This document shows, piece after piece, positions 7,394 to 42,221 of a stretch of DNA of 42,221 nt; within the stretch, counting starts at the first letter, position 1, and each line of letters opens with the position of its first letter. Origin of the DNA: an uncultured Myxococcales bacterium (GTDB lineage: Bacteria > Myxococcota_A > Polyangia > Palsa-1104 > JAEUJZ01). The stretch is from assembly GCA_937859535.1 (NCBI GenBank), contig CALLYL010000240.1, forward strand, positions 1 through 42,221, read 5' to 3'. The position numbers were made by a program, and so were the translations under genes. Below the pieces are notes generated by a model. The model saw nothing but the letters and a program-made list of their open reading frames with translations, made no database searches and was not told the origin of the DNA.

Positions 7394-9001
7394 TTAGAGC
7401 AGTGCGGCGTGCTGTTTGGCCGCAGCGAGGACGGAACCATTTTCACACAGTGTGCGCACCGCCTCGATTTCCAAGTACAGTGGCCGATCTTGGATGAGCT
7501 CCGGCACCCGCGAGCGCACCAGGCGATGCACCGCTGATAGTGCGGCAGCGGGCATCAAAGGTGCGCGCAGCGAGATCCCCTGCGTCGCACAGCACAGCTC
7601 GATGGCCAGCACGGTACGGACGTTGTCGACGATACGTTGGAGCTTGTCGGCGGCGTGCACACCCATCGAGACGTGATCTTCGCGACCGGCAGAAGATGGA
7701 ATCGAGTCCACCGACGCCGGGTGCGCCAGGATCTTGTTTTCCGAGACCAGCGCTGCCGCCGTCACCTGTGCGATCATGTAGCCCGAGTTCAGCCCGCTGT
7801 TGCGGATCAAAAACGCCGGCAATCCCGACGAAAGGTGTGGGTTGACGAGCTGCTCGATGCGACGTTCGGAGATATTGGCCAGCTCGGCGGTGGCAATGCC
7901 GGCAAAGTCGAGCGCCAGCGCCACCGGTTGGCCGTGAAAGTTGCCGCCGCTGACGATGTCGTAGCGCAGTTCATCGCCCGACTTATCGTCCGGTTCCACA
8001 AAGATCAGCGGATTGTCGGTCGCGCTCTGGGTCTCGTGCAGCAGTACCTGTTTGGCATAACCGAGCCCGTCTCGAGAGGCCCCATGAACCTGCGGCATGC
8101 AGCGCAGGGAGTAAGGATCTTGCACTTTGCCGCAGTTGCGATGCGAGTCGACGATTGGGCTGCCGGAAAGCAGCGTACGCAGGTTCATCGCCGACACCGC
8201 CTGCCCTGGCTGCGGCCGTGCGGCATGGATTCGCGCATCGAAGGCGCGTGGCGTTCCGAGCAGCGCTTCGAGCGACATCGCCCCGACCACATCGGCCAGC
8301 GTACACAGATCGAGCGCATCCGCGACGGCCAGTGCCCCGATCGCGGTCATGCACTGCGTGCCGTTGATGAGCGCCAAACCTTCCTTGGCAGCCAGCACGA
8401 TCGGCTCAAGCCCGGCCTCATCATGCGCTTGCGCCGAGGTCTGCGTCCGTTCACAACCGGGCAGGCCGACCTGTACCTCACCTTCGCCGATCACCCCGAG
8501 CGTCAGATGTGCGAGCGGTGCCAAGTCTCCCGATGCACCGACGGAACCACGGCTTGGCACGCACGGATGAATGCGGCGGTTTAGCAGCTCACAGAGACGC
8601 TCAGCAACGAACAATCGCACGCCACTGTGTCCCAGCGATAGCGTGCAGGCGCGCAGCAGGAGCATCCCGCGCACCACAGCGATCGGCAGAAGCGGACCGA
8701 CGCCCGCCGCGTGCGAGCGAACCAAGTTGTATTGCAGCTCGACGATCTGCTGGGCCGAGATGCGCACGTCGGCCAAAAAGCCGAAGCCCGTATTGATTCC
8801 ATACGTACTCGGCGCGGAATCGCCTCCCTTGAGCATCTGATCGACGACGGAACGCGAATTTTCGATGCGCTGCTTGGCCGCGTCAGCCAGCACCACCCGC
8901 CGCCCTTCGCGACAGATCTCGCGCATCGACTGGAAGTCCAGCACATCGAGACCAATACGGAACGGCTCGGCTTGCTCACTGCGCGACTTGGATATCGACA
9001 T
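7394..9001 (-). CDS. hutH: Histidine ammonia-lyase
   Basis: Protein of 535 aa that converts L-histidine to trans-urocanate and ammonia, the first step of histidine breakdown, in the cytosol. The Ala-Ser-Gly triplet that cyclises to the MIO electrophile is in GSVGASGDLAPLAHL. The selectivity loop reads NLVRSHAAGVG; the Ser-His pair points to histidine rather than tyrosine or phenylalanine lyase. YGINTGFG supplies the catalytic Tyr loop. The family's usual length is 500-510, so the N terminus is slightly long (about 25 extra residues, rich in Ser/Arg/Glu). No other hut gene (hutU, hutI, hutG) is present; instead the gene runs into an FtsB-like and a diguanylate cyclase gene, so it may be under separate control from the rest of the pathway. 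Confidence 0.93.
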   Translation of the reverse strand: MSISKSRSEQAEPFRIGLDVLDFQSMREICREGRRVVLADAAKQRIENSRSVVDQMLKGGDSAPSTYGINTGFGFLADVRISAQQIVELQYNLVRSHAAGVGPLLPIAVVRGMLLLRACTLSLGHSGVRLFVAERLCELLNRRIHPCVPSRGSVGASGDLAPLAHLTLGVIGEGEVQVGLPGCERTQTSAQAHDEAGLEPIVLAAKEGLALINGTQCMTAIGALAVADALDLCTLADVVGAMSLEALLGTPRAFDARIHAARPQPGQAVSAMNLRTLLSGSPIVDSHRNCGKVQDPYSLRCMPQVHGASRDGLGYAKQVLLHETQSATDNPLIFVEPDDKSGDELRYDIVSGGNFHGQPVALALDFAGIATAELANISERRIEQLVNPHLSSGLPAFLIRNSGLNSGYMIAQVTAAALVSENKILAHPASVDSIPSSAGREDHVSMGVHAADKLQRIVDNVRTVLAIELCCATQGISLRAPLMPAAALSAVHRLVRSRVPELIQDRPLYLEIEAVRTLCENGSVLAAAKQHAALL

Positions 9002-33216: not shown

Positions 33217-35223
33217 CTACTGAACTTCTCGGACACAACGGAAGCCGACGCCGGAGAGCAATCGATCTTCCGGAGCACGAAAGCGGGCAGCACCACGAGC
33301 AGACAGAAAGTCCTCATTCCAAGCGCCACCTCTCAAGACGCGGTAGCGCGGCTGATTGGGGCTCGGCGTTTGAGGCGCATCTTGGTGAGGAGAATGCAGA
33401 ACCGTCGAGCTTTCGGGCAGCTTGATCACAAACCAGTCAGAGGTCCACTCCGATACACTGCCTCCCATGTCCAGGACGCCATCCAAGGTTCGATCGAGGG
33501 GCATCGAGCCCACATTGGGAAGCTTCGGACTTCCTATTTTGGGAGTGCAGGCACAGCGTTCGCCATCCGTTCCACAGCGCTCGAGGACCGAGTGGCCACA
33601 GCTTGGACGCTCGGCCCCCCATGGGAAGCGACGGTCGCCGCGTCGAGCCACGTATTCCCACTCTGCTTCTGTGGGGAGTCGTTTACCCTGCGCAGCACAG
33701 AAGTCGGTGGCCGCTTGCCACGAAACCATCACGACCGGGTGACGACGAAACTCCGGGCTGACAACAAAGCTTCGCTCCTCCGCTTTGTACGTCATTCCGC
33801 CGTAATGAGGATCATTGTACAGGTTCTTGTAGGGTGCGCCGTTGACCGTTCGATAGACGCAGGGGAAACCCTTCACTCCGATGTTCGGATGTTTTTCCCC
33901 TGGACACTCATCCTTGACAACGATGCGTCCGACTTGAAGTTCCTTCCGCAGGAACTGAGCAAACTCCTCGTTTGTCACCTCCTTGCGATCGATATCGAAA
34001 GCCGGTAGTTCCACAGTGCGAATGACCGACTCTCTATCCAGGTAATCTTGGACAAGATAGTTCTGAACGTAGAACTGTTTTTCCTTTGGAAGATCGCGGT
34101 CTAGTTCCACAGCCAGGTCGCGTGCAACCTGACGCTCCGCTACCGTCGAGCCCATGATGAAGTGCCCGCCGGGGATTCGAACCATCACCGATTCCGGGAA
34201 ATACTCAGCCAATGGTCGGGGAAGCAGCCGTACGACCTGGTGCGGTGCCAGTAGAGCCAACAAGATGAAGAGAAGCAGAGGCATACTGATGACGTAGGCA
34301 AGGCGTATGCCAGTCCCTTGTGGTCGCAGGTGCCGCCAGAGCCAGCGCCGCTTCCATGATGCCCGCTCGGGCTCGATGAGCAGTGCTCTGGCTCGTCTTG
34401 CAACCTCGGTGGCGGAGGGACGCTCGGTGGGCTCACGTGCCAGCAACTCCAGCACAAATTCACTCACAGCACGGGGTAGCGTTGGGACGCGTTTGCGGGG
34501 AGGCTCGGGCCGCTGGAAGATGTGCTTCGACATCAAGTTGCCGCCGTCGGGTAGATAGGGCGGACGACCACACAAAAGCTCGTACAGCACACAGCCAAGC
34601 GAATAGATGTCGGCCTGCCCATCGACTCGCTGACCCGCGCAACTCTCTGGGGCCATGTAGAGCGGCGTGCCCGGCACGTTGGTCTGCGTGGTGGCGTTGT
34701 CCTCGAGCAGCTTGGCGATTCCCAAGTCGAGCAGCTTGGTGCGCATCCCGCTCCGAGAATGCTCATCAGGCACTAGCATGATGTTGTCGGGCTTCAAGTC
34801 GCGGTGGATCACTCCCTGGGCATGCAGCTTGGTCAAAGTTGTCGCGACTTGCGCCACGATCGAGAGCGCGAGGTCGAGCGGAAGCCGCGATGGAGAGGAC
34901 TCCTTTAGACGCGCTCCGAGGTTTTGTCCCTCGACGTACTCCATCAGGATGTAGGGGGAGCCGTTGGGAAGTTCGCCGACGTTGTGAATGCTGACCAATC
35001 CCTCGGCATGGACTTTTCCGAGTGCCTTCGCTTCACGAATGAACCGGATTCGAGCCTTTTCGTCTTGGTTCGCGAGCGGTGAGATGGTCTTCACTGCCGC
35101 TAGGCTGCCAAGCTCCTCGTGTCGAGCCAGGTAGACCACCCCCATTCCACCTCTCCCAAGCTCACGCTCGATGCGGAATCGGTCGACGACTTGGCCGAGC
35201 AAGGGATCTCGCGAGTCGATCAT
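33217..35223 (-). CDS. Ser/Thr protein kinase fused to a formylglycine-generating-enzyme-like domain
   Basis: Protein of 668 aa. The kinase domain (about 15-290) is intact: GRGGMG, Lys45 in AAVKTI, HRDLKPDN (140-147), DLG (166-168; the DFG variant common in PknB-like kinases), GTPLYMAPE. One transmembrane helix (about 313-335) leads to a C-terminal FGE/SUMF1-type domain (about 350-668) with MVRIPGGHFIMGS, VEVTNEEF-like KEVTNEEFAQFL, RLPTEAEWEYVARRG, GGSVSEWTSDW, RVLRGGAW and GFRCVR. In such fusions the FGE-like domain often acts as a binding or sensor part rather than a sulfatase activator. ATG 35223 overlaps the stop of the FHA-sigma54 gene (ATGA), so both are made together: a kinase plus a phosphothreonine-reading transcription factor. 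Confidence 0.94.
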   Translation of the reverse strand: MIDSRDPLLGQVVDRFRIERELGRGGMGVVYLARHEELGSLAAVKTISPLANQDEKARIRFIREAKALGKVHAEGLVSIHNVGELPNGSPYILMEYVEGQNLGARLKESSPSRLPLDLALSIVAQVATTLTKLHAQGVIHRDLKPDNIMLVPDEHSRSGMRTKLLDLGIAKLLEDNATTQTNVPGTPLYMAPESCAGQRVDGQADIYSLGCVLYELLCGRPPYLPDGGNLMSKHIFQRPEPPRKRVPTLPRAVSEFVLELLAREPTERPSATEVARRARALLIEPERASWKRRWLWRHLRPQGTGIRLAYVISMPLLLFILLALLAPHQVVRLLPRPLAEYFPESVMVRIPGGHFIMGSTVAERQVARDLAVELDRDLPKEKQFYVQNYLVQDYLDRESVIRTVELPAFDIDRKEVTNEEFAQFLRKELQVGRIVVKDECPGEKHPNIGVKGFPCVYRTVNGAPYKNLYNDPHYGGMTYKAEERSFVVSPEFRRHPVVMVSWQAATDFCAAQGKRLPTEAEWEYVARRGDRRFPWGAERPSCGHSVLERCGTDGERCACTPKIGSPKLPNVGSMPLDRTLDGVLDMGGSVSEWTSDWFVIKLPESSTVLHSPHQDAPQTPSPNQPRYRVLRGGAWNEDFLSARGAARFRAPEDRLLSGVGFRCVREVQ

Positions 35224-36704
35224 TCGTCGTTGCGCTCTGGCTCAGAACTGGGAGGAGGCTTTTGGGCTGGCTTTGTACTGATTCCCCCGCGTGCAAAGGG
35301 CCGAAAAATGCCAAATTCATCCATCCGTCGCCGAACCTGTCGTGCCGATCGCCCGAGCAGCTTCGCCACCACCGAGATTTTGCCGTCATGTTCACTCAGT
35401 AGACGGACGAGTAACTCTTGGGTAATCGGCTGTTCCTCTCCATCCGGATCGGTGCTGTCATCCGTCGGCACTTCCGTTCGCGGCGAGGAGGGTGCCGATA
35501 GCTGCTCCAGCAAATCTTCCGGGAGATCCGTGAGATCAATCACAGCCGCCGAAGGAAGCAGCGAGCGTAGCCGTTTGCACAGGTTCTCTAGCTCGCGGAC
35601 GTTGCCAGGCCACGGATATAGCAGCAGTAGCTCGCCCAAGCGTGCGCTCAGCCGGTGCGGTCGGTCCGCCGGGTTCGCCAGGTTTAGGTAGTGCTGCACC
35701 AGCGGCAAGATGTCCTCCCGGCGCGTGGAGAGGGCAGGGAACCGCACTGGTAGCACGGACAGTCGCTGGAGCAGGTCTTCTCGGAACTTCCCTTCGCTGA
35801 CAGCTCGGCGCAGATCATGAGTCGCCGCGATGATGCGTACGTCAACCTGAAACTCGCTCTGACCACCGTAGCTCTGCACTCGCAACAGGTTGCGATTTGG
35901 TGGCATGGCAGGCCCACTGTGTGCGGGCTGGAGCGTGCGCAGTAGCTTGGCCTGGATCTCCAACGGCAGCTCGCCCACTTCATCCAGTAGCAGCGTTGCG
36001 CCGTCGGCCTGTTTGAAGTAGCCGTCGTGATCGCGCTCCGCTCCGGTAAATGCGCCGCGCCGATGACCAAAGAGCGCACTTTCCGCCGCGCCGTGAGGAA
36101 TCGCCGCACAGTTGACCGCCACCAGGGGCCGACTGCTTCGCGAGGACAGAGCATGGATGGCCGCTGCCCCCAACTCCTTGCCGGTTCCCGTCGGACCAGT
36201 CAATAAAACAGGCTCCCCCGAGCGCGCTGCTACGCTCAACGAGTGACGCAGCGAGCGAACCTCCTGCGACCGACCGAGGAGTCGCTCGTGGAGTGGCTTG
36301 TCCGTTCGTGGTGCATCGACAACGCTTGGCCGCTCCCAGCGCAGCACAAACAGTGAGTTGCCAACCCGCACCACCGACCCATCACGCAGCAATTCCTTTG
36401 AGACCTGCTGGCCGTTTACATACGTGTGGTTTTTGCTGCCCAAATCGACCAGTTCGAGTGCGCCTGCGGACGGGCGGAGTCGTGCATGTTGCTTCGACGC
36501 TTTGGCATCGTCTGCCAGTCGAATGCCCGCATTGGCATCTGCCTCGCGGCCAATCAGAACCTCGTGATCAACGACCCATGCCGATAGAGTCGACCCACTG
36601 AGCAGCGAAAATCCCTCAGGCAGCGGCAACACCTGCTTCAGTACGGGCACCGGCACCGTGGCCGATGGGATCTGGAGATCGGTTTCAGTCGGTCGAGAGG
36701 TCAT
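35220..36704 (-). CDS. FHA-domain sigma-54-dependent transcriptional activator
   Basis: Protein of 494 aa. An FHA domain (about 45-115, IGREADANAGIRL, SKQHARLRP, GSKNHTYVNGQQV) recognises phosphothreonine and replaces the usual receiver. The AAA+ domain is complete: Walker A GPTGTGK (170-176), GAFTGA (217-222) for sigma-54 contact, Walker B TLLLDE (237-242), and the arginine-finger region FREDLLQRLSVLPVRFPAL. The C-terminal helix-turn-helix is ISVVAKLLGRSARQVRRRMDEFGI. It should open sigma-54 promoters when a kinase, probably the co-translated one, phosphorylates a partner or itself. Its gene is divergent from the TPR-CHAT gene; the region between them carries tandem repeats and a sigma-54 promoter match, so CHAT is the likely target. 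Confidence 0.95.
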   Translation of the reverse strand: MTSRPTETDLQIPSATVPVPVLKQVLPLPEGFSLLSGSTLSAWVVDHEVLIGREADANAGIRLADDAKASKQHARLRPSAGALELVDLGSKNHTYVNGQQVSKELLRDGSVVRVGNSLFVLRWERPSVVDAPRTDKPLHERLLGRSQEVRSLRHSLSVAARSGEPVLLTGPTGTGKELGAAAIHALSSRSSRPLVAVNCAAIPHGAAESALFGHRRGAFTGAERDHDGYFKQADGATLLLDEVGELPLEIQAKLLRTLQPAHSGPAMPPNRNLLRVQSYGGQSEFQVDVRIIAATHDLRRAVSEGKFREDLLQRLSVLPVRFPALSTRREDILPLVQHYLNLANPADRPHRLSARLGELLLLYPWPGNVRELENLCKRLRSLLPSAAVIDLTDLPEDLLEQLSAPSSPRTEVPTDDSTDPDGEEQPITQELLVRLLSEHDGKISVVAKLLGRSARQVRRRMDEFGIFRPFARGGISTKPAQKPPPSSEPERNDE

Positions 36705-36783: not shown

Positions 36784-36831
36784 TAGGCGGGCCGATAGGC
36801 GGGCCGATAGGCGGGCCCAGGGCGGGCCTAT
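36784..36831. repeat. Four tandem 12-bp repeats, enhancer candidate
   Basis: Units TAGGCGGGCCGA at 36784-36795 and 36796-36807, TAGGCGGGCCCA at 36808-36819, and a diverged GGGCGGGCCTAT at 36820-36831. GATAGG (36806-36811) and CCTATC (36827-36832) form inverted ends. The block lies 53-100 bp upstream of the sigma-54 promoter match, the usual distance for an enhancer-bound activator, and between that promoter and the activator's own gene. Confidence 0.6.
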
Positions 36832-36883
36832 CAACAGCAATGGGTCCGCGAGTTTCTGTCGACACCTGCGCAATCGGCAGCCA

Positions 36884-36899
36884 AGGCGCAACACTTGCT
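36884..36899 (+). promoter_or_regulatory. Sigma-54 (-24/-12) promoter of the TPR-CHAT gene
   Basis: AGGCGCAACACTTGCT contains GG at 36885-36886 and GC at 36897-36898 with exactly ten bases between, the invariant sigma-54 spacing; the -12 element TTGCT is perfect and the -24 element AGGCGC keeps GGC-C. Transcription would begin near 36910, leaving a leader of about 34 nt with an AAGGTGAG ribosome site before ATG 36944. Orientation, spacing and the adjacent GAFTGA activator support it. Confidence 0.6.
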
Positions 36900-36943
36900 T
36901 GGTGGATTGGCATCTGCGGGTCGACTTCCACTAAGGTGAGCCC

Positions 36944-39925
36944 ATGAAACATCGATTGCCAATCATGCTCTGGCTGATGACCTGTCTATTAGGGCTCATC
37001 ACGTGCGTTGCATTCGCTGAGACGGCGCAAAGCCCGAAGCAGATGTTGTCGCCAAGTTCTCAGATGTGTCTCAAGCTGACCGAGGCCGGTACATTCCAAG
37101 AAGCGCTAGCAGCTTGTCAGGATGCGCTTCGAGAGGCCCAGTTACGGCATGGAATACAACATCCGAGAACCTGTGAACCACTGGCGAACCTAGCTCGTTT
37201 GCAATTTCAGCGGGGCGAGTATCAGCTAGCCGAGAAACTGTATCGAGAGGCTATCGAGAGCCTTATCACAGTAGCGGCGAAATATCAATTCAAAATGGTC
37301 ATGCTCAAAACTTCACTTGCCGCAACACTAGATATTCAAGGTAAATATCAGCAAGTCGAAGAGGCCTATCAGCAAGCCATTGGTATTCTAGCCAAGGATG
37401 ACTCTTCTCAAGCGTCGGTACGCGCATCAGTGCTCAACAATCTGGCGGAATTCTATCGCTCGCAAGCCAAATACGATCGAGCTGAGGCGACTCTGCAAGA
37501 AGCACTGGCGGTGCTCAAAAAGGCTGGCCTCACCGAGGACCGGTGGTACGCTCATGTATTGAATAGCCTTGGCGAACTTCATCGCGAGCTGGGACGATTT
37601 GCCTACGCTGAAGAATTCTTGCGAACCTCGCTGGAGCTTCGAACGAAAATCCTACGTGCACAAGATCCAGATATTGCCACCACTCTCAATAATTATGCCG
37701 AATTGCAGCGAGAGCGTGGTCGATATGCTGAAGCCTTGCCGATGTATGAAAGAGCCATTTCGATCCGTCGACAAAGCCTAGGTGATCGACATCCGCATTA
37801 TGCTTCGACGATAGAAAATATAGGCAAACTATATCTAGATAGTGGAAATGCAGAACGGGCTGAATTGTTTCTTAAGGAGGCGCTGAATCTTAGAGAAAAG
37901 TCGGTTGGCACACAGAATTATCTATATGCAAAGACGCTATATAGCATGGCACAATTCCATAGAATCCAAAGGCACTGGAGTGTCGCACGTGAAATGCTGC
38001 TTCAAGCCCTCGCGGTTCGCGTCAAGATTTTTGGTGAAAATCATATATTGGTTGGACAAGTTGAGCATGAATTGGCTCTGGTTGCGTTTGGCCAAGGCGA
38101 TGAGCGAACGGCCCTTGTACACTTACAACGAGCACTTGAGATCGAAGAAGGAATCCTTGAGCTTGCTGATGGAGAGACTCGATTACTTGCTCTTATGGAT
38201 AAATATCAGGCACTAGCCATGCATGTATACAGTCTGCTCTTTTCAAAAGCACCGACGGCGCGTCAACTCGCCATCAGGCTGCTTCTATTACGTAAAGGAC
38301 GATGGTTGGAGGCTGGACTCCGCGCAAATTCGACAACGCAAACTAACAACACTGTAGCCAACACCAATGAGGTAATGGAGAGGCTTCACTCACTTCGTGG
38401 TCAGCTCGTGTTGCGGTTATTGGGAAAGCATACCAATACAGGTAATCGTGATGACAATTCCATCATTTCATCTATGCAAACTGAAATTGATGAATTAGAG
38501 CGGAAACTGGTAGCTGCGAGTGGCCAGAGTCGCCGTCCACTTGTTCAATCACTAAACACCATTTTGGATCAAGTAACTTCTCGACTCAGTTCTGGCGAAG
38601 CGCTCATCGAGTTCGTGAGATTGTCTCCGTATCGCTTTATGGCACCAGGCATGGCTGAGTCACTGCGTTGGTCACCTCCTCGATATGTTGCTATTGTGAT
38701 TTCACCTAACAATGCTCCGCTGGTCTATGACTTAGGTGTTGCCGGTAAGATCGAAGACGCTGTTTCTGTATTCATGTCAGCAATTTATAATAGGCGTAGT
38801 TCTCCAATGGCTTTAGCAAATGGTGTTTATGAAATGATAATATCAAAGATGAAGAAATATTTCATGAAATTCAAAAAGATTTACATTTCTACGGATGGGG
38901 TTCTGAATACATTGCCATTCTATGCTCTCCATGATGGACAGAGCTATTTGATCGATAAATTTGAATTTGTCTACTTGACCTCTGGACGCGATCTTGCTCG
39001 TGGATTTGATACAATATCAAAAAGTCGATTAGGCACTGCATTGCTATTCGCAGATCCTGCTTATGGTGATATAAGTGTAAGTCAGTCTGTTGCTACTACT
39101 GAAGGATCTTCAATGGCACCGCTGGCCTATCGTTCCAAAGACCTTCTGGGAATGGCTCAATCGTTAGTTGCATTACCCGGTTCGCGTGCCGAGGTGGATT
39201 CCATTGCCAAGTATCTGCCATCCTCACGAGTGCTCACCGGAACCGATGCATCAGAGAGCAACTTGCGACGAGCGGAGTCTCCTTGGCTGCTACACTTGGC
39301 GCTCCATGCCGGTGCCGGTCATCCGTCATCACGGGAAGCGTCTCGATTGGCGCAACCGGCTGCTACCTCACCGACAGATCCAATGGACCCCAAAGAGGCG
39401 GCCCAGACATCACGTGGACTCGCCCAGGCCATTGGGCCCGTTCGAAGAGAAACTCCGTCCATGGAACAGACCATGGTTGAGTCGCCTCAGCAACTTATGA
39501 CGCGCTCGGCCCTGTTTCTGAGCGGCGCAGCTTCTGCTGGTTCGATATCAGATGCCGGCTCTGACGGAATCCTAACCGCCGAGGAAGCCCGCAACCTTCA
39601 TCTGCATGGCACTGCGCTGGTGGTTTTGTCTGCTTGTGAGAGTGGTCTTGGGGTGTTACATGCAAGCCATGGCGTTTTTGGGCTTCGGCGCGCTTTTCTT
39701 GTCGCTGGCGCGGAATCGCTAGTGACCAGTCTGTGGCGAATCGATGATAACGCTACGGTTGGGTTAATGAAAGAATTCTACCGACAGCTTTTGACGGTGA
39801 AGCGAGAGAGGTCTTCGTCGCTACGAATGGCGATGCAAGCCCAGCGGGCGAAGTATCCGCATCCATATTACTGGGCACCATTCATCCTCATCGGACGCAG
39901 TGACGCGCTTCGTTTCGATCCGTGA
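36944..39925 (+). CDS. Exported TPR-CHAT protease
   Basis: Protein of 993 aa. The N terminus (PIMLWLMTCLLGLITCVAFA) is a Sec signal peptide, probably cleaved after AFA. Residues 40-410 are about eight tetratricopeptide repeats (for example ANLARLQFQRGEYQLAEKLYREAI, TTLNNYAELQRERGRYAEALPMYERAI). The C-terminal CHAT domain (about 550-990, caspase-related clan) has the conserved STDGVLNTLPFYAL, catalytic His788 in HLALHAG and Cys898 in VVLSACESGLG, then GVFGLRRAFLVAGAESLVTSLW. The His-Cys gap is 110 residues, roughly twice the usual, through a Pro/Ser/Thr/Ala-rich insert. Base composition changes inside the gene: very AT-rich at about 38700-39000, normal after 39130. It is divergent from the FHA-sigma54 activator and convergent with the caspase-family operon. 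The substrate is unknown; other TPR-CHAT proteases act in programmed cell death and CRISPR type III-E. Confidence 0.93.
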   Translation: MKHRLPIMLWLMTCLLGLITCVAFAETAQSPKQMLSPSSQMCLKLTEAGTFQEALAACQDALREAQLRHGIQHPRTCEPLANLARLQFQRGEYQLAEKLYREAIESLITVAAKYQFKMVMLKTSLAATLDIQGKYQQVEEAYQQAIGILAKDDSSQASVRASVLNNLAEFYRSQAKYDRAEATLQEALAVLKKAGLTEDRWYAHVLNSLGELHRELGRFAYAEEFLRTSLELRTKILRAQDPDIATTLNNYAELQRERGRYAEALPMYERAISIRRQSLGDRHPHYASTIENIGKLYLDSGNAERAELFLKEALNLREKSVGTQNYLYAKTLYSMAQFHRIQRHWSVAREMLLQALAVRVKIFGENHILVGQVEHELALVAFGQGDERTALVHLQRALEIEEGILELADGETRLLALMDKYQALAMHVYSLLFSKAPTARQLAIRLLLLRKGRWLEAGLRANSTTQTNNTVANTNEVMERLHSLRGQLVLRLLGKHTNTGNRDDNSIISSMQTEIDELERKLVAASGQSRRPLVQSLNTILDQVTSRLSSGEALIEFVRLSPYRFMAPGMAESLRWSPPRYVAIVISPNNAPLVYDLGVAGKIEDAVSVFMSAIYNRRSSPMALANGVYEMIISKMKKYFMKFKKIYISTDGVLNTLPFYALHDGQSYLIDKFEFVYLTSGRDLARGFDTISKSRLGTALLFADPAYGDISVSQSVATTEGSSMAPLAYRSKDLLGMAQSLVALPGSRAEVDSIAKYLPSSRVLTGTDASESNLRRAESPWLLHLALHAGAGHPSSREASRLAQPAATSPTDPMDPKEAAQTSRGLAQAIGPVRRETPSMEQTMVESPQQLMTRSALFLSGAASAGSISDAGSDGILTAEEARNLHLHGTALVVLSACESGLGVLHASHGVFGLRRAFLVAGAESLVTSLWRIDDNATVGLMKEFYRQLLTVKRERSSSLRMAMQAQRAKYPHPYYWAPFILIGRSDALRFDP

Positions 39926-39967: not shown

Positions 39968-40621
39968 CTACGGCTGTTCATGTCGATACATGATCACTTC
40001 TACGGTGTTTGTGACGCTGCAGCGAATGACAACCCGGCAGCAGGGCTGCCCAGGATATAGTGGTACCCATGGATTGGCGATGTGTACCGTAACGTGATGT
40101 GCGTCATCAATGCAACCACTCTGAATCAGATATTCTTTTGGTGCGTGAAGGAACACTTCGGCATCACCGGGACTCAATTCCGACCAGTACATATGCCAAG
40201 GTTCACCTGACAGCTCGGGTACTTGCGAAGATACATCCACAATTGTTTGAGAGATCGGCGGGAGCGGTTCCGTTTCAGTATCCTGGTTGGACGTTGACTG
40301 GGTTTGTCTATGCTGGAATCTCTGCGGGTCTTTGGGGTGTCTAAACAGGATCAAGTTTGAAAATAATGTCGTTTGGCTGCATAGCATCACCAGTCCTGTG
40401 GTATGGCTGCTTGCGCTCTTTGGAACATAAGCGTTGGCAATCCGGAGCGATAGTCGACCCACTCGCTTGGCCAGCTTGCTAGCGACCAGAATGGGCCCCG
40501 GATCGCGAAGGAATTCATCTTCATCCATGTCGAGTTGAAACCAATACAGTCGCCATGGCTCATCGCGGATCTCGGGAACTCGCTCTGTGACATCAATGAA
40601 CTCGATCAATTTGTCTTGCAT
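39968..40621 (-). CDS. Protein of two tandem copies of an unrecognised domain, downstream of the caspase gene
   Basis: Not recognised. The 217-aa protein from ATG 40621 (AGGAGG ribosome site 5 nt upstream) has no signal peptide and is an internal duplication. Copy 1 (about 5-96) and copy 2 (about 124-215) share VPE-EPW-YW (15-27; 134-146), IAN-VP (61-67; 181-187), CS-T (81-84; 201-204) and a final RH (94-95; 213-214), at nearly identical spacing. A Gln/Thr/Glu-rich linker joins them. The frame is open to 40771, but this extension overlaps the caspase gene and has no start signal. It lies 70 bp downstream of the caspase gene on the same strand and is AT-rich like it. It could be a substrate, inhibitor or effector of one of the two neighbouring proteases; the sequence gives no direct evidence. 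Confidence 0.72.
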   Translation of the reverse strand: MQDKLIEFIDVTERVPEIRDEPWRLYWFQLDMDEDEFLRDPGPILVASKLAKRVGRLSLRIANAYVPKSASSHTTGLVMLCSQTTLFSNLILFRHPKDPQRFQHRQTQSTSNQDTETEPLPPISQTIVDVSSQVPELSGEPWHMYWSELSPGDAEVFLHAPKEYLIQSGCIDDAHHVTVHIANPWVPLYPGQPCCRVVIRCSVTNTVEVIMYRHEQP

Positions 40622-40691
40622 CGCTTCCTCCTGGGTTCGTTGCCCGTTGCTATCACTACTTTTACACAATCTACTTTTTCGGCTGTCCCTG

Positions 40692-42221
40692 TTAACGTGA
40701 AATCTCAATCCACGCGTCGGTGGTTCCCCACACTTGAGAGGATGGGTTGCTGGTTGCACCACGCTCGCCATTCATCAGGTCGAGCAATAGCCGTGCCAGC
40801 GGCGATGTGCGATCACCCGATCGATCCGTACCTCGCTGGATCGAGCCTTGGATGGCTCCGCTCAAATCGATCGGATCTCGTGTCGCGATGAGCTTCAGAA
40901 GAGAGCGCTGACCGACTGGTCCCTTGATTATATACACATATGGACGATAGTCTAGTATATGAGGCTTCCCATCTGCTGCAATTAGGTTGTCAGTTGAATT
41001 TCTGTTTGTCGGAAATAGGACATCAACGCTACCAACGCTACCATCGCTGCCGAGTTCTAGTATTGTTACATATAGTGGATTTTTGGATGTGTTGGTAAGT
41101 TCAATCATGAAATAACTGTTCGATGGTTCAGTTAAGTGCTGGGTGGGGGGGCGATTGGGGTATGGGCTTGGCCTTTCGATCGGAAATCCATTTTTGTCTA
41201 GCGTTACGATAACCGGAAACGTCTTTAGTTGTACGTTTGCGGATGGATTGTCTTGTTGTAATCTGTATAAATGTTTCCAGCGCCAAAATTCCTTGAGTGT
41301 TCGCTGGAGCGATTCGGAGGGTTTCTGATCGAGCGGTAAGCCAATCATTGGTGTGCTTGAGCTGGCTCGTCGGACTTCGATTTTATTTGTTCGCTCATTG
41401 CACAGTACAGACACATCGTGTTGCTTGGAGTTGGCCTCAGACGTTGTGACTACATGCTGTGTGGTGATTGCTTTATACAATTCTGAGCAACGAACTTGTG
41501 CTTTGATGTTGTTGGGCTTGTTGATCCAATACAGTCGCAAGGGATCGTTGGTGTATGAGTGTAATTTCTCAATTCCAATGATGCCTTGGTTGGTGATACG
41601 ATTGCTTGGTAATGATAGACCATTTATCAAAGTGAGAGTTGCTTGCATTGGGTCAACTTGTTGTACTTCGGCCTCCCCCAGTGAGGATGCTTGATCGTAA
41701 TTTGTGCTTTCAGTTAGATACAGCGAAAACACCGACTGGGTTGTAATGCCATGGATCGAACCTGCTTGAAGCCGTAACCGCCCTTCTTTGTCGTACAGGA
41801 CACGATGGCCAGCAGATGCTAGAGCGTTCGATTTCATTTTTCCAGAGAATAGGAGCGAGTCGGGATTGCCTTCCAACTGAGGGCTTTGCTCTGGAACGAC
41901 GCTAGAGACTTCCACGGAGATTTTGTCTATCAATGTGCGATAGGTGGTTGTGTTATCTGCCGGAGACGTCGCGAGGGCATGGATAAGTGCGCGGGAATAC
42001 ACGCCCATTCCATTTTCTTCATGGGCCGTTTGGTCACTGCGAGAAGCCGATAACAAGACATAGTTACCATGAGCAGCCTCTCCTGTGGAGAACAGGCCAG
42101 TCGGGCCATCCATTTGACCACGCGGAAACGGTCGCGGCTTGGGCCCATCCAATGAGACGTTCCAAGGTCCGCCTCTCTCAATCAGAATACCGCGAGTAGC
42201 CGTGCCAGAGAAGCAGCTATC
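40692..42221 (-). CDS. Caspase-family (peptidase C14) protein with DUF4384-like C terminus, 5' truncated by window edge
   Basis: The frame is open to the last base of the window; the TTG at 42152 is only an internal codon. The first visible residues are DSCFSGTATRG, the catalytic-Cys motif of bacterial caspases and metacaspase-like C14 enzymes; the catalytic His lies outside the window. The p10-like part follows: NYVLLSASRSDQTAHE, GVYSRALIHALA and EQSPQLEGNPDSLLFSG. Next come a strand-rich region typical of caspase-DUF4384 proteins (AGSIHGITTQSVFSLYL), a stretch with PLRLYWINK that weakly recalls the EPW-YW motif of the downstream protein, and a DUF4384-like domain (SYFMIELTNTSKNPLYVTILEL to LLKLIATRDPIDLSGAI). 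The gene is AT-rich relative to the rest of the window. It probably forms an operon with the duplicated-domain gene. Confidence 0.85.
   Translation of the reverse strand, partial: DSCFSGTATRGILIERGGPWNVSLDGPKPRPFPRGQMDGPTGLFSTGEAAHGNYVLLSASRSDQTAHEENGMGVYSRALIHALATSPADNTTTYRTLIDKISVEVSSVVPEQSPQLEGNPDSLLFSGKMKSNALASAGHRVLYDKEGRLRLQAGSIHGITTQSVFSLYLTESTNYDQASSLGEAEVQQVDPMQATLTLINGLSLPSNRITNQGIIGIEKLHSYTNDPLRLYWINKPNNIKAQVRCSELYKAITTQHVVTTSEANSKQHDVSVLCNERTNKIEVRRASSSTPMIGLPLDQKPSESLQRTLKEFWRWKHLYRLQQDNPSANVQLKTFPVIVTLDKNGFPIERPSPYPNRPPTQHLTEPSNSYFMIELTNTSKNPLYVTILELGSDGSVGSVDVLFPTNRNSTDNLIAADGKPHILDYRPYVYIIKGPVGQRSLLKLIATRDPIDLSGAIQGSIQRGTDRSGDRTSPLARLLLDLMNGERGATSNPSSQVWGTTDAWIEISR

Follow-up and report, generated by a model that had tools for sequence, protein, structure and literature searches.

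The window analysed here, a contig of 42,221 bp from an uncultured Myxococcales bacterium, contains a 239-bp intergenic region between two divergently transcribed genes, one on the minus strand for an enhancer-binding protein (EBP) and one on the plus strand for a TPR-CHAT protein. The genes and elements are as follows, with open reading frame (ORF) starts taken by the longest frame:

33217 to 35223, minus strand: Ser/Thr protein kinase with a C-terminal FGE-sulfatase-like domain (Pkinase E 6.7e-50, FGE-sulfatase E 8.6e-40)
35220 to 36704, minus strand: activator of 494 aa with FHA, sigma-54-interacting AAA+ (GAFTGA) and Fis-type HTH domains (Pfam, translation)
36784 to 36828, plus strand: 12-bp GC-rich direct repeat in 3.8 copies, core GGCGGGCC, linkers GATA/CA/TATC; found by TRF and a candidate array for the FHA-EBP
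36806 to 36832, no strand: 27-bp imperfect palindrome GATAGGCGGGCCC-A-GGGCGGGCCTATC formed by the last two array units, arms 85% complementary (repeat search)
36884 to 36899, plus strand: candidate sigma-54 -24/-12 element AGGCGCAACACTTGCT of the TPR-CHAT gene, 44 bp upstream of its ATG; contains GG-N10-GC, matches TTGCT perfectly and scores 10.4 bits
36944 to 39925, plus strand: TPR-CHAT protein of 993 aa (Pfam CHAT PF12770, E 2.6e-56, and TPR_12; translation)
40692 to 42221, minus strand: C-terminal part of a caspase-like (Peptidase_C14) protein, ended by the contig edge at 42221 (alignment with L100)

The activator carries the three parts that mark an FHA-type EBP: an FHA domain (PF00498, E 5.5e-14), a sigma-54-interacting AAA+ domain (PF00158, E 5.4e-52, followed by AAA_lid_14) with the GAFTGA loop that is required for sigma-54 contact, and a Fis-type HTH that is marginal as HTH_8 (21.8 bits against a cut-off of 22). 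The kinase gene overlaps the activator gene by 4 bp, and the two probably form one operon. In the TPR-CHAT protein, which begins with a signal-like stretch, the motifs LHLALHA and SACESG can be read, and their His and Cys are the probable catalytic dyad of a putative CHAT protease. The caspase-like protein beyond it aligns from DSCFSG with a caspase-like protein of the same genome (L100) that matches PF00656, at 31% identity over 515 columns. Within the 3' end of its ORF lies a perfect consensus -24/-12 element, TGGCACGGCTATTGCT (40783 to 40798, minus strand; 0 mismatches, 17.8 bits), about 160 bp before the likely start (MQDK, ~40621) of an ORF at 39968-40771, whose product has two similar halves and belongs to no recognised family.

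In the intergenic region, the -24/-12 element that a preliminary description had placed before the CHAT gene is indeed present, and a Shine-Dalgarno-like AAGGTGAG precedes the ATG at 36944. AGGCGCAACACTTGCT differs at two positions from the consensus TGGCACNNNNNTTGCW (near TGGCAC-N5-TTGCW), the T at -26 being replaced by A and CAC by CGC. By an approximate matrix with weights based on the consensus, a score of at least 10.4 bits is reached at 15 of 84,412 positions in the window and on the plus strand of 1.8% of shuffled intergenic regions, so that the element is only moderately rare. Moreover, sites of this quality lie within 180 bp of 11 of the 105 genes in the loci fetched from the same genome, and AGGCGCAACACTTGCT alone is thus weak evidence: taken by itself it is a moderate match, suggestive rather than strong. 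A scan of the region for sigma-70-like promoters found none, and the genome encodes RpoN (PF00309 match on contig C647, E 3.1e-14).

For the repeats next to it, TRF reports a period of 12, 3.8 copies, a 91% match and a score of 69, the highest in the window; when the 239-bp region was dinucleotide-shuffled 2000 times, no score exceeded 60, which argues that the array is non-random and bears out the about four GC-rich 12-bp repeats described earlier. The units read GGCGGGCCGATA, GGCGGGCCGATA, GGCGGGCCCA(G) and GGCGGGCCTATC, with starts spaced 12, 12 and 11 bp. Their distance had been given as 53-100 bp upstream, which holds if counted from the promoter (the array edge is 55 bp from the -24 element) but not from the ATG, from which the array spans 116-160 bp; on its other side the array is 79 bp from the activator start. 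Upstream activating sequences are repeated or dyad sites that an EBP binds 80-200 bp upstream of the start; position, repetition and dyad are seen here, which makes the array a candidate.

No close orthologue of the window EBP was found in 379 genomes of the phylum at E 1e-78, and conservation was therefore judged on paralogues; a contig search with the same protein brought up one distant EBP and otherwise just pieces of FHA proteins unrelated to it. Two contigs of the same genome, C921 and C555, together contain an old paralogous module with the same set of genes: FHA-EBP, kinase-FGE, caspase-like and TPR-CHAT. C921 ends within an EBP that is 56% identical to the window EBP, and C555 (L100) opens within an EBP C-terminus (51%). 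Next on C555 come a kinase-FGE gene whose product is 52% identical to the window kinase over its full length, a small ORF, an opposite-strand caspase-like (C14) gene and the TPR-CHAT gene. Presumably the two contigs belong to a single locus and the two EBP pieces to a single gene. When the EBP C-terminus of C555 is compared with the window EBP, the recognition helix is nearly identical (SARQIRRRMDEF vs SARQVRRRMDEF).

Upstream of the paralogous CHAT gene, TGGCAATCTGCTTGCA stands ~42 bp (offset 41-42) before the ATG, near L100:5432-5448, and scores 14.7 bits. Only 0.04% of shuffles of this upstream region give a window-grade site within 3 bp of the same offset, and the offset is a fair test because the window site was named before the paralogous locus was seen. 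The position kept in a diverged paralogue, the RpoN of the genome and the intact GAFTGA of the activator support a sigma-54 promoter, which probably drives CHAT. It is improbable, by comparison, that the -24/-12 match is accidental and that CHAT uses another sigma factor, in which case the array might still bind an EBP. The imperfect site, its equals before other genes of the genome and the mostly site-less upstream regions of distant TPR-CHAT homologues that have no EBP nearby would fit an accident; the stronger paralogous site at the same offset would not, nor would the distribution of scores among the 14 CHAT genes with a visible upstream region. Four of these (window, C555, C364 and C73) reach 10.4 bits, clearly separate from the other ten, which stay at or below 7.4.

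The array did not follow the promoter. Exact copies of its core TAGGCGNGCCCAGGGCGNGCC number two in the 7.4 Mb of the genome: one is in the window array, and the other precedes the C921 EBP, where it belongs to an array of 11-bp period. No array was found near the paralogous CHAT promoter, and matches to GGCSGSCCGAT in L100 were at chance level only. Of the two elements whose conservation in relatives the preliminary description proposed to check, the promoter is kept in the paralogue, whereas the array is absent from the paralogous CHAT gene and stays with the EBP gene.

A further locus of the same genome, on contig C22 (L057), has a comparable layout. Here an FHA-EBP/kinase operon diverges from a target gene that carries TGGCATTTGCATTGCT 43 bp before its start, and the intergenic region holds three 13-bp repeats, GATCAGGCGGCCC. 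With the register held fixed, the unit agrees with that of the window in 10 of 12 positions, a likeness reached by 0.6% of permutations; the orientation of the units relative to the EBP gene is reversed, which counts against the reading preferred below. In another genus, the EBP of L067 is the orthologue of the C22 EBP (50% identity), and it has retained the array, with the divergent gene preceded by the promoter TGGCACCGAGGTTGCA. Homology between the target ORFs at these two loci is not clear, which leaves EBP, array and promoter type as the only conserved parts. All five matches to the tandem pattern AGGCSGSCCGAT-N0-2-GGCSGSCC in the family's six genomes fall at three of the FHA-EBP loci described here; since the pattern was drawn from these arrays, this shows specificity, not discovery. 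Three distant single matches have no EBP nearby.

Because related arrays precede FHA-EBPs whose recognition helices resemble each other, among them two orthologues from different genera, the repeats are probably binding sites of the activator. That they are instead neutral slippage products, or an RNA hairpin or attenuator, seems very unlikely to us. The repeats are GC-rich and direct, and a terminator-like hairpin at 36822-36849 overlaps the array end, but the RNA fold is ordinary (z -1.57), no transcript is expected to run through the array toward the hairpin, and related units recur 5' of FHA-EBPs at other loci and in another genus.

Three other tandem arrays were seen beside FHA-EBPs or EBPs. 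On contig C911 of the same genome (L105 7955-8014), three 20-bp direct repeats ATCTGTTTGTCAACYTCCCT lie upstream of TGGCGCAGCACTTGCA (~8174-8189), which is 34 bp before a 236-aa ORF convergent with another FHA-EBP; this is likely another EBP array, with another motif and another recognition helix. A 21-bp repeat in 4.3 copies (L069 7649-7739, G004:C22) ends ~60 bp upstream of an EBP gene, from which it appears that tandem arrays beside these EBPs may be common. The 11-bp repeat AGGAATCGAAC in 8.7 copies (L063 10400-10495, G002:C99) separates an FHA-EBP gene from the kinase-FGE gene that comes next.

If the array binds the activator, which gene does it serve? Over four loci, the gap between array and EBP start is 79, 68, 69 and ~100 bp, while the gap between array and the -24 element of the target is 55, 118 and 278 bp. 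The steady EBP gaps, the variable target gaps and the lack of an array at the paralogous CHAT gene tie the array more steadily to the EBP gene. The array is therefore probably no less important for the promoter of the activator itself than for that of CHAT, and autoregulation would be the simplest function common to the arrays. In the divergent loci, the array is also likely to act as an enhancer for the sigma-54 gene on the other side, since both promoters are within reach.

These distances raise the alternative that the array is an operator of the activator-kinase operon only, with a real sigma-54 promoter at CHAT that responds to another activator or through other sites. We regard this as the most serious rival, albeit one we would bet against. 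The near-constant distance to the EBP start fits it, as does the paralogous module, in which the array lies beside the EBP and an array-less CHAT gene kilobases off. There is also precedent in Nla28 of Myxococcus xanthus, an EBP whose operon is autoregulated through tandem half-sites, imperfect 8-bp repeats upstream of -24/-12 elements that often form clusters of 3-5 (PMC9765219). Nla28 differs in its half-site CT(C/G)CG(C/G)AG of variable spacing and in its input from the histidine kinase Nla28S, whereas the window has near-exact, phased 12-bp repeats and FHA input. Against an operator alone, three of the four loci have their array flanked by the EBP gene and a divergent -24/-12 gene, within the usual enhancer range.

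Our preferred reading, which we hold with somewhat better than even confidence, is that the array is the binding site of the FHA activator, which turns on CHAT by way of sigma-54 and probably controls its own operon as well. The stretch 36784-36944 would then be a two-sided regulatory region, with the operon of EBP and Ser/Thr kinase on its left and the TPR-CHAT gene on its right. Activator dimers would occupy the array at roughly one site per helical turn, and the FHA domain would read the kinase, or a phosphoprotein that it produces, and thereby license the AAA+ ring. The ring would remodel sigma-54 RNA polymerase at 36884-36899, with CHAT transcription predicted from ~36910, and the same array, so close to the activator start, would most likely autoregulate the activator-kinase operon too. 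The preliminary description had called this activator the only EBP in the window, with which a Pfam scan of the nine surrounding proteins agrees; but at least 43 EBPs are encoded in the genome, so that its neighbouring position is little proof. We infer that CHAT is driven by the window activator and not by one of the 40 or so others. The direct line from activator over repeats to CHAT that was first proposed is thus kept in part: the sigma-54 promoter is supported and the repeats are likely activator sites, but the arrays follow the activator gene and not the target.

How general might such control be? Of the other CHAT genes with a good site, that of C73 lies just 3' of a different EBP gene. 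The one on C364, a third TPR-CHAT gene with a 1506-aa frame, has TGGAACGCCTGTTGCT upstream (L099 ~7613-7628, minus strand), and no EBP was recognised on its contig. In the fetched loci of the class, FHA-EBPs have 18 divergent neighbours, of which 4 carry a site that comes close to 10.4 bits or exceeds it, compared with ~4% of other genes, so that the layout is not universal among FHA-EBPs. Distant TPR-CHAT homologues of the class without a neighbouring EBP mostly have no -24/-12 site. In two other genera of the family (G003:C6 and G004:C18; L113 6107-12186 and L114 7159-12968), kinase-FGE is directly followed by a co-directional TPR-CHAT gene, with no EBP and no sigma-54 site. By these family and class homologues, sigma-54 control is not a general feature of CHAT genes. 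It looks lineage-specific, and the kinase-CHAT pairing, found in those two genera without EBP or sigma-54 site, may be older.

FHA-EBPs join an FHA domain to a sigma-54 AAA+ domain and a Fis-type HTH and are linked to Ser/Thr kinase signalling. The window activator has the same domain build and kinase link, but its partner is a kinase-FGE protein and the gene opposite it encodes TPR-CHAT, with a caspase-like output; the FHA-EBPs of M. xanthus are the subject of a 2005 paper by Jelsbak, Givskov and Kaiser (PNAS 102:3010). Tandem dyads are found at the gcs2 promoter of Pseudomonas aeruginosa, where three GcsR sites lie upstream of the RpoN promoter of a neighbouring operon (PMC4894688); the window would share this layout, but GcsR is TyrR-like and glycine-sensing, with 18-bp sites and a metabolic output. 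As for the output, Csx29 of the type III-E CRISPR Craspase is a TPR-CHAT caspase-like protein (PMC10028731, PMC9729208), compared with which the window TPR-CHAT protein is apparently controlled transcriptionally through sigma-54 and adjoins a second caspase-like gene. The neighbouring genes that were examined include no recognisable CRISPR genes. The arrangement is thus a canonical sigma-54 enhancer architecture, and its new part is the caspase-like output; what is notable is this target, the second copy that the genome holds, and the way in which arrays and recognition helix go together.

More tentatively, the two loci could be copies of a duplicated cell-death or immunity module, in which an FGE-sensor kinase would signal to the FHA-EBP, and the EBP, through a phased GGC-N2-GCC array and sigma-54, to TPR-CHAT and C14 proteases; we think this possible but doubtful. 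Discussions of CHAT and caspase-like proteins in bacteria usually centre on a post-translational trigger. Sigma-54 promoters are silent without an activator, and if the proposed circuit is true, the supply of CHAT and caspase-like proteins would therefore be held near zero until a phospho-signal arrives. Furthermore, a given recognition helix is accompanied by related repeats at more than one locus, which suggests that activator-target pairs may be readable from FHA-EBP loci.
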